This document shows, one piece after another, positions 27,620 to 58,040 of a stretch of DNA of 64,000 bases (position 1 is the stretch's first letter; each line of letters starts with the position of its first letter). This DNA comes from Struthio camelus (Eukaryota > Chordata > Aves > Struthioniformes > Struthionidae). The notes under the pieces were generated by a model. That model was not told where the DNA came from. It did no database searches and saw only the letters and a program-made list of their open reading frames with translations. The stretch covers positions 44,445,317 through 44,509,316 of the forward strand of contig NC_090981.1 in assembly GCF_040807025.1 (NCBI RefSeq). Direction: 5' to 3'. The position numbers and the translations under genes are program-made.

Positions 27620-30600
27620 TTACGGTGCTTTGGCCAGAGGTTTGGCTAGATTCTGTATGACAGCAGAGTTCAGCTGTGCAATAGTGCTTATCTTGGCATT
27701 TTTGCTGCTGGCATATTTATTCTTGATAGTCTGCAAAGAGATAGTTAGATTAAGTTTAGCCTGCTCATAAATAAACATAAGCCACTCTACTAGCAGGCTT
27801 CAGATAATCTGAGGCTTGGTGGCCAGGCCAAGTGACTTCAGGCACCCAGAACAATTCTGTGTTCTGGTAAGCTTGTGCCGGCTTGTATCACCTTGGCAAG
27901 ATAGAGACCCTTCAGCTGAAGGGAGCAGGTCTGATACAAGTCTGGTATCAGCGGCTCAAGTCACAGAACCACATATTATTGACACGTAACCAAGTCCACT
28001 CCCCGTCTTTACCATGAGAAGCTTACCATGTGCTTAGTAAGGCCCCGATTCACTAGAATTATGTTCTTTGCCATATGTTGCATGACTGGAAGAAGGTCAC
28101 TCTCAGTGTAAGTCATGTAGTGTTGTAGAGTTGGTGTCTGAAAGGAAGGGACATTATTGGACGATACTACTAGGACAATTTGAGTTTGCTGGATTTTATC
28201 TTTTGTTGGGGTTGGACAGCTGCAGTCTCCTTTCTCACAGGAAACTGTTAACTGCCCTACTTCTGTCCCCCCGTTATGGGTCAAGGGGAGACAAGAACGC
28301 ACTTGGCCTAGAGTGGCATTTTATGCTGGTACATGAGTACACCAAGTCCCAAACTAGGAAGTGGTGTCCAACGAGCATGACTTACCCACTCGCCCCCATC
28401 AAGAACTTTCAGAGCCAAACAGGAAGCAGCAGCCGCAGTTTTGGAAGGAGGGAAGTGAACCATTTCATAGTCCACCATGGACAACTCCATCAGGTACTTG
28501 GCCAGAGTGTGTTGTTCCAAGTCCACCTGGAATAAGTCTGAGTTGAGCGTTGTCTCCAAGGCAAAAACATCGTGTCAAGGCTCAGTTGCCTTTGTTTAAA
28601 TAGGCAGGAAGAAATACTTCCTTATTAAACGCTTTTCAAGCTGTAGGCTTGAAGTTTAAGTGGCTTAATCATGGAGCCATTTTGAGTAGTGTTCAGCTGC
28701 TTGTATCTTAGGACTATTCCCTTCAACAGCAGTCTGACAATCCTCTGCTAGTACCAGGCAGGCATTTTCACTCAGGTATGGCTGGATCAGGCTCAAGTGG
28801 GAAAAAGCAGACAAATAAGACCACTTTCTACACGGAAACGGGTTTCAGACTGAACTGTTTGTTCAGTTGCTAAATGGTTATAATACTCAAACCAAAGTTT
28901 TACACAGTGTTAACAAGCTGCAACAGCCAAGCGTTGCATCTTCAGGTTAACGCTGACAGTAACACCACAGCTCTCAGCATTACCTCTGCAATCTTTGAAG
29001 CCCTCCTTAAGAAGTGTAGAGGCAGAGGGCGACCCAGACCAAAGTCCAGGGCTCGCAGGATCTTCATCTCCATCTGGCGGATCTGAGACTTTGTGTAAGT
29101 GTGATCTGTTACAAAGGCAAAATCCCCAATTTCAGGGGGATACATTTCTTCATACTTGCTGGCAATGAACATAGCTGTGACACCAACCAGCTGCAACATC
29201 TTCTTGGACACAGTATTGTCCTGTAGTAGAAAGCAGTAGAGACTTGTGTGAGACTGAATGACTTGGCTCAGCTTTTCAAGGTAGCCAACATAAGGTTCCT
29301 ACTATGCACTGGCATATACAGAGTAACTGTACAGCATTTTATTACCTCTATTAGCCTCTGCAGGGCTGTGGACAGGCTATTGAGATCAAGTCAGGGAGAG
29401 AAATAAATAGCTTTGATATGCCAGGTCAGTGTTTCTAGTTGAGATGGGTATACACTGTGCAGAGTTCAGGACTAAAAAGCTCTTTGCTTGTCAGCTATTT
29501 TTTTTGTTAGGGTCAACACATCCAACCACATGTATGATGTTATCAGTGCTTGTTGTGCTTTAGCTTAGAGGAAAAGCATTCCTTGACACTATACTCACCT
29601 GCAGGAAGCGATCAATGATAGCAACTGTCATGTACATGGTCTCCTGCAGGAGTCTGAACTTCATCTGTACTTGCACAAGCCAGTCTATTAGTATAGCTCG
29701 CATATTCCCAGTGATTTCCTGGCCTGCCAGGTATTTGGGTCTGACAGCTTGTTTTTCCTGTGTGGAAGGAATAGGGTTAGTAGGAGATCCAGCCAGTTAG
29801 AGGCTAGATGTTGCAGAGACTTGAGCTAGGTCATGTTAAGGCAAGGCTTATCAAGGAGCTCAGTACAAGCACACCGCATAAGCCTGGGACACAGAGCGTG
29901 AGGTTTCTGAGTTTGATTATTAGATATTGGCTAGAAAGATCAGGGTACTAGTACTACTAGCCGACTGGTCTAATGACCAGCGTTATCAGGCTGGTCAGTT
30001 TTACTCTGGAATTTTAAGTTAAGAAATTGCTTGTTCTTGCTTCCTAAAATCCTGTAAGGGAAAGTGAATGCCAGTCCCTGTAACGACAGGTTCGCTGTCA
30101 GTGGATCTGCCTGTGACTCTGAATGACTCCTACCAACCTCGAGGTCTCTCAGGTAGTTGTAGATGTCCTTCACGTATTCACTGCAGAGGTTTGGGTCAGT
30201 GCCATCTTCCACATCTACGTCCTTCACTTCCAGCAGGACATCAGAGAAAGCCTGGCACAGCATCTCCTCGGACGGGGCGCACCCGGACGTCTCCATGGGT
30301 GTCGGAGAGGGCGACTCCAGCTACAAGGAGGTTTGGGCTCAGCCGAGGGGAGGCCCCGAGTGAGCGGCCCGGGGCCGCCCCGGGGCATGGCGGGGCTCGG
30401 GCGGTACCTTGGCGGGCTCGGGCTGCGGCTCGGGCTGCGGCGGCGGCTCGGCAGCGGGCTGCGGCGGCTCCTCCTTGGGGGCCGCCCGCAGGGCCCTGCG
30501 CGGCGCCACCTTCTCGGCGGCGGCCGGCGGCTTCTTGATGGCAGCCCGCGGCTGGGGCTCGCCGACGTGGTTGCCGATGTCGCCCAGGGCGGTGCGGGGG

Positions 30601-33600
30601 CGCAGCCCGGCCTTGGCGGCGGCCGCCGGGACCCCGCGCTTGGCGGCGGGCACGCTGCTCTTCGCCGTGGCGTCGGCCGCCGTCCGCGTGTGCTGCGGGG
30701 AGGGGGGGGTGTCACCGCGGCCCCCGGCTGGGGGGGGGCCACGGCTGCACCCCCCCGCCCCCAAAGCGGGGGGGTTCGGGGGGAACCAGGAGGGGGCACG
30801 GCTGCACCCCCCAACCAGCGGGAGGGTTTGGGGGGTTCGGGGGGAACCAGGAGGGGGCACGGCTGCACCCCCCAACCAGCAGGAGGGTTTGGGGGGGTTC
30901 AGGGGGAACCAGGAGGGGGCACGGCTGCACCCCCCAACCAGCGGGAGGGTTTGGGGGGGCGGGGAGGGAACCAGGAGGGGGCACGGCTGCACCCCCCAAC
31001 CAGCGGGAGGGTTTGGGGGGCGGGGAGGGAACCAGGAGGGGGCACGGCTGCACCCCCCAACCAGCGGGAGGGTTTGGGGGGGTTCGGGGGGAACCAGGAG
31101 GGGGCACGGCTGCACCCCCCAACCAGCGGGAGGGTTTGGGGGGGTTCGGGGGGAACCAGGAGGGGGCACGGCTGCACCCCCCAACCAGCGGGAGGGTTTG
31201 GGGGGCGGGGAGGGAACCAGGAGGGGGCACGGCTGCACCCCCCAACCAGCGGGAGGGTTTGGGGGGGCGGGGAGGGAACCAGGAGGGGGCACAGCTGCAC
31301 CCCCCAACCAGCGGGAGGGTTTGGGGGGCGGGGAGGGAACCAGGAGGGGGCACGGCTGCACCCCCCAACCAGCGGGAGGGTTTGGGGGGGTTCGGGGGGA
31401 ACCAGGAGGGGGCACGGCTGCACCCCCCAACCAGCGGGAGGGTTTGGGGGGTTCGGGGGGAACCAGGAGGGGGCACGGCTGCACCCCCCAACCAGCGGGA
31501 GGGTTTGGGGGGTGGGGAGGGAACCAGGAGGGGGCACGGCTGCACCCCCCAACCAGCAGGAGGGTTTGGGGGGGTTCAGGGGGAACCAGGAGGGGGCACG
31601 GCTGCACCCCCCAACCAGCGGGAGGGTTTGGGGGGTTCGGGGGGAACCAGGAGGGGGCACGGCTGCACCCCCCAACCAGCAGGAGGGTTTGGGGGGGTTC
31701 GGGGGGAACCAGGAGGGGGCACGGCTGCACCCCCCAACCAGCGGGAGGGTTTGGGGGGGTTCAGGGGGAACCAGGAGGGGGCACGGCTGCACCCCCCAAC
31801 CAGCGGGAGGGTTTGGGGGGGTTCGGGGGGAACCAGGAGGGGGCACGGCTGCACCCCCCAACCAGCGGGAGGGTTTGGGGGGCGGGGAGGGAACCAGGAG
31901 GGGGCACGGCTGCACCCCCCAACCAGCGGGAGGGTTTGGGGGGGTTCGGGGGGAACCAGGAGGGGGCACGGCTGCACCCCCCAACCAGCGGGAGGGTTTG
32001 GGGGGCGGGGAGGGAACCAGGAGGGGGCACGGCTGCACCCCCCAACCAGCGGGAGGGTTTGGGGGGGTTCGGGGGGAACCAGGAGGGGGCACGGCTGCAC
32101 CCCCCAACCAGCGGGAGGGTTTGGGGGGGCGGGGAGGGAACCAGGAGGGGGCACGGCTGCACCCCCCAACCAGCGGGAGGGTTTGGGGGGGTTCGGGGGG
32201 AACCAGGAGGGGGCACGGCTGCACCCCCCAACCAGCGGGAGGGTTTGGGGGGTTCGGGGGGAACCAGGAGGGGGCACGGCTGCACCCCCCAACCAGCAGG
32301 AGGGTTTGGGGGGGTTCGGGGGGAACCAGGAGGGGGCACGGCTGCACCCCCCAACCAGCGGGAGGGTTTGGGGGGTTCGGGGGGAACCAGGAGGGGGCAC
32401 GGCTGCACCCCCCAACCAGCGGGAGGGTTTGGGGGGGTTTCAGGGGGAACCAGGAGGGGGCACGGCTGCACCCCCCAACCAGCGGGAGGGTTTGGGGGGG
32501 TTCAGGGGGAACCAGGAGGGGGCACGGCTGCACCCCCCAACCAGCGGGAGGGTTTGGGGGGTTCGGGGGGAACCAGGAGGGGGCACGGCTGCACCCCCCA
32601 ACCAGCGGGAGGGTTTGGGGGGGTTTCAGGGGGAACCAGGAGGGGGCACGGCTGCACCCCCCAACCAGCGGGAGGGTTTGGGGGGGTTCAGGGGGAACCA
32701 GGAGGGGGCACGGCTGCACCCCCCAACCAGCGGGAGGGTTTGGGGGGCGGGGAGGGAACCAGGAGGGGGCACAGCTGCACCCCCCAACCAGCGGGAGGGT
32801 TTGGGGGGGCGGGGAGGGAACCAGGAGGGGGCACGGCTGCACCCCCCAACCAGCAGGAGGGTTTGGGGGGGTTCGGAGGGAACCAGGAGGGGGCACAGCT
32901 GCACCCCCCAACCAGCGGGAGGGTTTGGGGGGGTTCGGGGGGAACCAGGAGGGGGCACGGCTGCACCCCCCAACCAGCGGGAGGGTTTGGGGGGCGGGGA
33001 GGGAACCAGGAGGGGGCACGGCTGCACCCCCCAACCAGCGGGAGGGTTTGGGGGGGTTCGGGGGGAACCAGGAGGGGGCACGGCTGCACCCCCCAACCAG
33101 CGGGAGGGTTTGGGGGGCGGGGAGGGAACCAGGAGGGGGCACGGCTGCACCCCCCAACCAGCGGGAGGGTTTGGGGGGGTTCGGGGGGAACCAGGAGGGG
33201 GCACGGCTGCACCCCCCAACCAGCGGGAGGGTTTGGGGGGTTCGGGGGGAACCAGGAGGGGGCACGGCTGCACCCCCCAACCAGCGGGAGGGTTTGGGGG
33301 GTTCGGGGGGAACCAGGAGGGGGCACGGCTGCACCCCCCAACCAGCAGGAGGGTTTGGGGGGTTCGGGGGGAACCAGGAGGGGGCACGGCTGCACCCCCC
33401 AACCAGCGGGAGGGTTTGGGGGGTTCGGGGGGAACCAGGAGGGGGCACGGCTGCACCCCCCAACCAGCGGGAGGGTTTGGGGGGTTCGGGGGGAACCAGG
33501 AGGGGGCACAGCTGCACCCCCCAACCAGCGGGAGGGTTTGGGGGGTTCGGGGGGAACCAGGAGGGGGCACGGCTGCACCCCCCAACCAGCGGGAGGGTTT

Positions 33601-33978
33601 GGGGGGTTCGGGGGGAACCAGGAGGGGGCACGGCTGCACCCCCCAACCAGCGGGAGGGTTTGGGGGGCGGGGAGGGAACCACGACCCCCCACCAAGCGGG
33701 AAAGGGGAGGGAAAAGGGGGGCCGGGAGCGTTGTACGGCTGCACCCCACAAGCGGGAGGGTTTGGGGGGAGGAAGGAGGAGCGACCGGGGGGCCGCATGG
33801 CTGCAGCCCAGCTGCCCCGCGCCGCGGCAGGGCTAGGGGCCGGGGACACCCCGGAGGGCTGCGTGGCCGCCCCCCGCCCCGCCGCGCAGCGGAGCCGGGG
33901 CAGACAGCCCGCTGCCCAGCGGGGGAAGGCCGGGCCGGGCCGGGCCGGCGCACCTACCCGGGTGACCCTGAGCGCCAT
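27620..33978 (-). CDS. CCNB1: CCNB1, G2/mitotic-specific cyclin B1
   Basis: Regulatory partner of CDK1 that drives entry into mitosis and is destroyed by APC/C. Eight exons: 33958-33978 (MALRVTR), 30408-30692, 30138-30320, 29599-29757, 28984-29220, 28386-28526, 28027-28137 and 27620-27730. They sum to 1,248 bp, 415 aa (human 433). Visible: destruction box RTALGDIGN (residues 40-48), a Pro/Glu/Ala-rich linker ending [13 protein letters not shown], the [11 protein letters not shown] phosphorylation region before the cyclin fold, the cyclin-box hallmark [29 protein letters not shown], and the second cyclin fold ending in [13 protein letters not shown]. The residues separate it from cyclin B2. 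Exon 3 has a weak donor (GAG|gttggt). Intron 1 (30,693-33,957) is almost entirely a tandem array. Introns 2-7 are short (88-1,072 bp) and unremarkable. Confidence 0.97.
30715..33775. repeat. G-rich minisatellite array in CCNB1 intron 1, about 47 units of 61-63 bp
   Basis: The anchor AACCAGGAG recurs at 30784, 30845, 30907, 30969, 31030 and so on to 33616, with a last partial match (AACCACGAC) at 33677: 48 positions spaced 61, 62 or 63 bp. A conserved core of about 45 bp (from AACCAGGAGGGGGCAC through GCTGCACCCCCCAACCAGC to GGAGGGTTTGGGG) is followed by a variable junction: TTCGGGGGG, TTCAGGGGG, GCGGGGAGGG, or single GTGGGGAGGG and TTCGGAGGG units. Point variants are G/A in CACGGCTG and in AGCGGGAG. 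The 61-bp form is 29 G, 16 C, 10 A, 6 T (74% GC). Degenerate units flank both ends (about 30,715-30,783 and 33,678-33,775), as expected for an array that grows and homogenises from within. No plus-strand frame has a stop, so open frames of over 1,100 codons appear; they are artefacts. Confidence 0.98.
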
Positions 33979-34063: not shown

Positions 34064-34116
34064 TTTAAACCTCGCACTCGGCGCCGCTCATTGGCCGCCC
34101 GCCGCCGCCCCATTGG
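34064..34116 (-). promoter_or_regulatory. Two CCAAT boxes and a CHR-like TTTAAA in the CCNB1 promoter
   Basis: On the minus strand CCAAT lies at 34,112-34,116 and again at 34,090-34,094 (22 bp apart), followed by TTTAAA at 34,064-34,069, 86 bp upstream of the ATG. NF-Y-bound CCAAT pairs with a downstream CHR are the known layout of B-type cyclin promoters; TTTAAA is, as I recall, a reported functional CHR variant. Sites are seen, function is inferred. Confidence 0.55.

Positions 34117-37573: not shown

Positions 37574-58040
<20,467 letters not shown>

Follow-up and report, generated by a model that had tools for sequence, protein, structure and literature searches.

How does a gene as central to mitosis as cyclin B1 come to carry a tandem repeat across almost the whole of its first intron, and by what process does such a repeat change? 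The question is raised by a 64-kb stretch of ostrich (Struthio camelus) DNA from contig NC_090981.1 – the window, in what follows – in which intron 1 of CCNB1 holds a long G-rich array of 61/62-bp units. The answer that we favour, with a probability of about 0.65, is that the array is a hypervariable minisatellite of the variable number tandem repeat (VNTR) type, pseudoautosomal in location, reshuffled by conversion and largely neutral for the gene. The evidence that carries this answer comes mainly from a second copy of the locus in the same assembly.

An array of 47 units in intron 1 of CCNB1

Tandem Repeats Finder (TRF) reports one dominant array in the window (coordinates in Table 1), with a period of 61 bp (also 123), 47.1 copies, 95% matches and a score of 5145, where the next-best array elsewhere in the 64 kb scores only 98. 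The array spans 2,900 bp, or 89% of the intron, and starts 0.3 kb from the CCNB1 start codon, in a GC-rich part of about 4 kb surrounded by DNA of 32–45% GC. Cutting the array at its strict unit start, AACCAGGAGGGGGCAC, of which there are 47 occurrences, yields 47 units of 61–63 bp, the last of them trimmed to 61 bases. Variable minisatellites are recognised by a tandem unit of about 10–100 bp present in many copies, which is what is found here.

An earlier note on this DNA had placed an array of 47 units in intron 1 of CCNB1, and both the count and the place are confirmed: TRF and unit cutting agree on the former, and the latter follows from GT...AG boundaries together with the 415-residue protein assembled from the exons, which in a protein search matches G2/mitotic-specific cyclin-B1 of Struthio camelus at 100% identity from end to end (the next-best named matches being those of emu, 96%, kiwi, 95%, rhea, 94%, and a tinamou, 80%). 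Other parts of that description need adjustment. Its 48 anchors can be recovered with a looser anchor, which occurs 49 times (48 from 30740 to 33629 and one isolated at 33796), but the uniform spacing of 61–63 bp begins only after a first interval of 57 bp. Degenerate edges are present, as partial units at both ends, whereas a homogeneous centre inside the array is not supported: in the array of the window the distance to the commonest unit is flat from edge to edge, neighbours are distributed as in shuffled order, and the proposed homogenisation gradient was dropped for want of any such trend. Finally, ‘G-rich’ is right for the + strand, the template in CCNB1 transcription, and wrong for the transcript, in which the array is C-rich.

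A higher-order unit of 123 bp was also considered and set aside; TRF scores it 5174 against 5145 for 61 bp, and the identity of units two places apart (9 of 45 pairs, a value reached by 6.5% of shuffles) is no more than suggestive. On the + strand, all three frames are open across the array between 30123 and 34408, giving stop-to-stop frames of 1,234–1,289 codons; as the unit is poor in stops, these are best taken as a by-product and not as a gene.

A second copy with similar flanks and a different array

When 301 bp of the array were compared with their own assembly, the 24 matches among the best candidates scored lay on the window's contig (C40, 70.4 Mb), on a contig of 89.9 Mb (C41) near 64.01 Mb and, in one weak instance, on a contig called C36; CCNB1 exon 2 gave two matches, one each on C40 and C41. 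Comparison of 76 kb of C41 with the window showed how close the two copies are: of the 60,957 bases aligned outside the array, 105 (0.17%) are mismatched, and 29 gap events account for 140 bases. In all eight exon pieces (those of exons 2 and 8 each compared short of one or two end codons) the reading frame stays open on C40 and C41 alike, and the pieces differ in exon 2 only, at 4 bases that change 2 amino acids (V to A and H to R).

The arrays are far less alike. The C41 copy has 27 units in an intron of 2,032 bp, against 47 units and 3,265 bp on C40, and the 74 units of both arrays fall into 24 types, of which 6 are common and 9 are private to each side. When the two unit orders are aligned, 61% of 300 shuffles reach the global score and 21% of them the local one; the edges of the arrays align no better than the remainder. 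No run of three units is common to both arrays, the number of common pairs is three (2.8 in shuffles), and if the 27-unit map is composed of runs taken from its 47-unit counterpart, 25 pieces are needed, where shuffled maps need 22–26. Two further features of VNTRs are seen across these two copies from one assembly, namely a copy number that differs between alleles (47 and 27) and an internal variant map that differs as well, no alignment beating the shuffles.

An internal control is provided by 32 TRF rows traced from C40 to C41 by their exact flanks: 4 are the array itself, 21 others were placed and 7 others could not be, and in the 21 placed control rows the largest change in length is 24 bp, at a CCG repeat at 57344. 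Since the flanks are only 0.17% apart and yet the unit orders cannot be aligned, the internal structure of the array turns over far faster than its surroundings. The fast change predicted by the earlier note is thus borne out, and variation in copy number among individuals, which it had also expected, is implied by the two copies of this one assembly. At mutation rates of 4e-9 to 1e-8 per site per generation, the flank divergence would correspond to some 86,000–215,000 generations since the common ancestor, and unit order would have been lost within about that time. As a separate observation, the copy number of the CCG microsatellite (57344–57381) stands at 12.7 in the window against 20.7 on C41, which ranks it second by length difference among the TRF rows that were placed.

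Which chromosomes carry the two copies is suggested by a DM-domain search of the assembly, whose five matches comprise three on C41 at 9.28–9.38 Mb (a partial one included), two on C8 and none on C40. In ratites, DMRT1 is Z-borne and has been lost from the W (PMC7601716; papers are cited here and below by PubMed Central number). The C41 cluster would then be the DMRT1-3-2 cluster, and we read C41 as the Z, C40 as the W and CCNB1 as pseudoautosomal. On both contigs the gene is 25.92 Mb away from the same end, and the flank difference of 0.17% fits a pseudoautosomal position, since the pseudoautosomal region (PAR) of the ostrich, 52.2 Mb long, has a published nucleotide diversity (pi) of 0.0016 (PMC10343094).

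Were C40 and C41 instead two haplotypes of another chromosome, or the products of a duplication, several observations would sit more easily: colinearity was shown for 64 kb only, the C40 stretches at 30.0 and 40.0 Mb have no match at the guessed places on C41, and the C40/C41 size ratio of 78% is unlike that of a W reported to be 65% of the Z (PMC10343094). Of the three C40 stretches compared with guessed places on C41, the sole match is the one near the end, within a tandem satellite, and from these three comparisons the PAR boundary was not found. The distribution of DM-domain matches, the equal distance of CCNB1 from the chromosome end and the agreement with published PAR diversity all speak for Z and W, and make the alternative very unlikely; even if it were correct, the arrays would remain two fast-diverged copies. 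Related forms of the tandem satellite occur on C40 and C41 at corresponding ends, some 20 kb in from the tip, with 90% identity in the best piece.

How the array changes

If units were duplicated one at a time in place, neighbours should be alike, and they are not. Identical neighbouring units number 3 of 46 in the C40 array (5.5 expected) and 1 of 26 in the C41 array (1.2 expected), and neighbouring units are no more similar than in shuffled order, an observation that speaks against slippage of single units and in favour of conversion-like exchange. The unit maps of ostrich CCNB1 are interspersed and not arranged in blocks. Among human minisatellites, block maps are described for MSY1, on the haploid Y, and interspersed maps for many autosomal loci, whose polymorphism is ascribed to largely interallelic germline exchange (PMC2599865).

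The units themselves vary in a restricted way. Within their 46-bp constant core there are four variable positions, three of which lie in CpGs, and 16 of the 21 variant cells of the core are CpG transitions, a pattern which suggests germline methylation of the array; the other variation lies in the G-run tail, with G-run lengths of 6 to 7. The + strand of the C40 array carries 45 non-overlapping G-quadruplex (G4) motifs, whereas its 200 dinucleotide shuffles average 28.9 +/- 2.8 and never exceed 35. A Watson–Crick hairpin, tried as a special feature of the unit, was rejected, its z-scores (0.44 and -0.55 as RNA, -0.22 and -1.38 as DNA) being unexceptional.

Taken together with the unit maps, a plausible course of events can be outlined. 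A G-rich stretch within CCNB1 intron 1, of which the degenerate copies on the exon 1 side may be the remnant, would have served as the seed from which the array grew, and exchange of a recombinational type (gene conversion as breaks are repaired) between homologues or sister chromatids would since have added, removed and reordered units. Such exchange could be favoured by the CpG-island promoter next to the array, since the bird species sampled so far lack PRDM9 and have their recombination concentrated near promoters and CpG islands (PMC5519329), and also by a G-rich strand able to stall replication forks. Because the intron is spliced out, the length of the array would be tolerated and largely neutral for CCNB1.

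Not everything favours this account. The neutrality of the array is assumed, and conversion-like exchange is deduced from unit order. Judged by its distance from the chromosome end, CCNB1 would fall in the middle of the PAR, where recombination in the ostrich is low (PMC10343094). The C40 array contains four repeated 3-unit runs (1.5 expected; reached by 6% of shuffles), and this, like the identity of units two places apart, is a weak sign of internal duplication, suggesting that events within the array also take part. Nor does the excess of single-nucleotide polymorphisms (SNPs) beside the array lend any support. Between 30268 and 30767, on the exon 2 side, there are 6 substitutions between the two copies in 500 bp where 0.86 are expected, and 1 on the promoter side; all six, however, are CpG transitions, CpG mutability is for that reason the simpler cause, and a recombination polarity drawn from flanking SNPs was dropped.

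The low broad-scale recombination of the mid-PAR (PMC10343094) and the weakly repeated 3-unit runs would both suit a minisatellite that is the same in kind but owes most of its change to slippage during replication at the G-quadruplexes of a single molecule, with no interallelic exchange, and the surplus of G4 motifs over dinucleotide shuffles and the alternation of the G-run between 6 and 7 point in the same direction. Slips of one or a few units should nonetheless give blocks, and with identical neighbours at chance level in both arrays we regard slippage as the main process as unlikely, if a serious candidate. Errors of assembly – a wrong copy number, or jumbled units, in one or both arrays – deserve mention because G4-rich tandem repeats are difficult to sequence (PMC6792250), yet neither stretch contains an N, each array has its 9 private unit types, and exact repeats of unit-type runs at a lag of at least 4 reach no more than 4 units in C40 and 1 in C41, unlike the stutter of an assembler; we consider an artefact highly improbable.

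A functional explanation would start from the position of the array, 0.3 kb inside the gene, and from its 45 G4 motifs on the template strand: G-quadruplexes and GC boxes might tune CCNB1 transcription or intron 1 splicing, with length as a modulator. The GC box GGGGCGGGG occurs in 13 of 47 units of the C40 array and in 14 of 27 of the C41 array, near-equal totals that may be due to chance. Neither unit order nor copy number is conserved between the two copies, though, and the available parts of the literature searched describe no such element of CCNB1, so that a regulatory role appears doubtful. Its boldest version, in which the array acts as a length-polymorphic, G4-dense cassette on the template strand that sets the pace of polymerase or spliceosome at intron 1, is a long shot; if it held, allele length exchanged between Z and W would translate into heritable differences in mitotic cyclin supply.

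The array is of interest in its own right, as a case, resolved unit by unit, of an intron that turns over fast on a large sex chromosome of a bird, outside the dot chromosomes from which the phenomenon was described. Two copies known at base level, with flanks 0.17% apart, make slippage and conversion testable against each other, and the array could serve as a highly informative pseudoautosomal marker of Z–W exchange. Its importance would be far greater if allele length proved to affect CCNB1 output.

Known relatives and the gene around the array

Repetitive, length-variable introns of birds are a class already described (PMC12954441, 2026), and the CCNB1 array is notable for its place and for its two fully resolved copies. 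The published ‘sequence stuttering’ of avian introns consists of imperfect tandem repeats with strong allele length variation, found mainly on dot chromosomes: of 236 introns with exon stuttering, 190 are on dot chromosomes and 36 on macrochromosomes, length-variable introns on chicken macrochromosomes are put at 11%, and the suggested cause is either meiotic conversion or replication stress arising at G4 (PMC12954441). The ostrich array resembles this class in its GC-rich, imperfect repeats with units of tens of bases, in the share of the intron that they fill and in the large length difference within a species, here between two copies. It departs from it in lacking exon copies (which are occasional there and not required), in lying on two large contigs in spite of the strong dot-chromosome tendency, and in being confined to one CCNB1 intron, where stuttering on dot chromosomes usually affects several introns per gene.

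Exon stuttering was in fact rejected for CCNB1, no exon copy being present within the array: in a comparison of exons 1–3 with intron 1 the best matches are of 12 bp (E 0.017 and 0.044), none of them in the unit array proper. Over 27620–33978, TRF found no array in the other CCNB1 introns, its further rows falling within or adjoining exon 2. A relationship to the weak C36 match (72% identity, E 4.9e-6) was likewise discarded, the sole C36 stretch viewed (180001–187000 of a 0.92-Mb contig) being a field of other G-rich arrays, dense enough to fill 47 TRF rows in 7 kb, that are similar in kind and taken to be no source. That stretch resembles the published dot-chromosome pattern.

G4-forming intronic tandem repeats are also known from GC-rich avian genes, namely leptin, TNF-alpha (in its first intron, as in CCNB1), MRPL52, PCP2 and PET100 (PMC6792250); those genes are GC-rich throughout and missing from assemblies, unlike CCNB1, where the GC-rich part is about 4 kb. 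With classical GC-rich human minisatellites (PMC2599865) the array shares a unit of 9–100 bp, a GC-rich composition, length polymorphism and interspersed maps, although it is known from two assembled copies alone. It also recalls the minisatellite-like repeats at recombination peaks of human PAR1, likewise tandem repeats in a pseudoautosomal region, except that those are tied to PRDM9 (PMC4102438), which the sampled birds lack (PMC5519329). In the titles and abstract openings searched, few of them from subscription papers, we found no description of an array in CCNB1 intron 1 or of a minisatellite in ostrich CCNB1.

The remaining features of the locus are collected in Table 1. Judging by eye from translations between 11000 and 61500, we take the neighbours of CCNB1, all of them minus-strand genes, to be CDK7, MRPS36 and CENPH on one side and SLC30A5 on the other. 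Upstream of the gene, TTTAAA at 34064 is presumably a CHR (cell cycle genes homology region) element, and it stands close to two inverted CCAAT boxes. NF-Y is a known activator of Ccnb1 (PMC5437063).

Table 1. Features in and around CCNB1 intron 1, in window coordinates
Feature	Position	Strand	Basis
61/62-bp minisatellite, 47 units, 15 types	30768..33667		TRF, unit cutting; G-rich on + strand
Degenerate partial unit, exon 2 side of array	30715..30767		Sequence; loose anchor at 30740
Degenerate copies, exon 1 side; candidate seed remnant	33668..33775		76% over 94 columns and 89% over 38 columns against the unit
CCNB1 intron 1, 3,265 bp (C41 copy 2,032 bp)	30693..33957	-	GT...AG boundaries, lengths
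CCNB1 coding exon 1 (MALRVTR)	33958..33978	-	Translation, 100% protein match
CCNB1 exon 2; 4 base and 2 amino-acid differences from C41 copy	30408..30692	-	Comparison; last codon placed from donor context
CCNB1 coding exons 3-8 with introns	27620..30320	-	Translation, protein match
CCNB1 promoter motifs: TTTAAA (34064), two inverted CCAAT boxes (34090, 34112)	34064..34116	-	Motif scan

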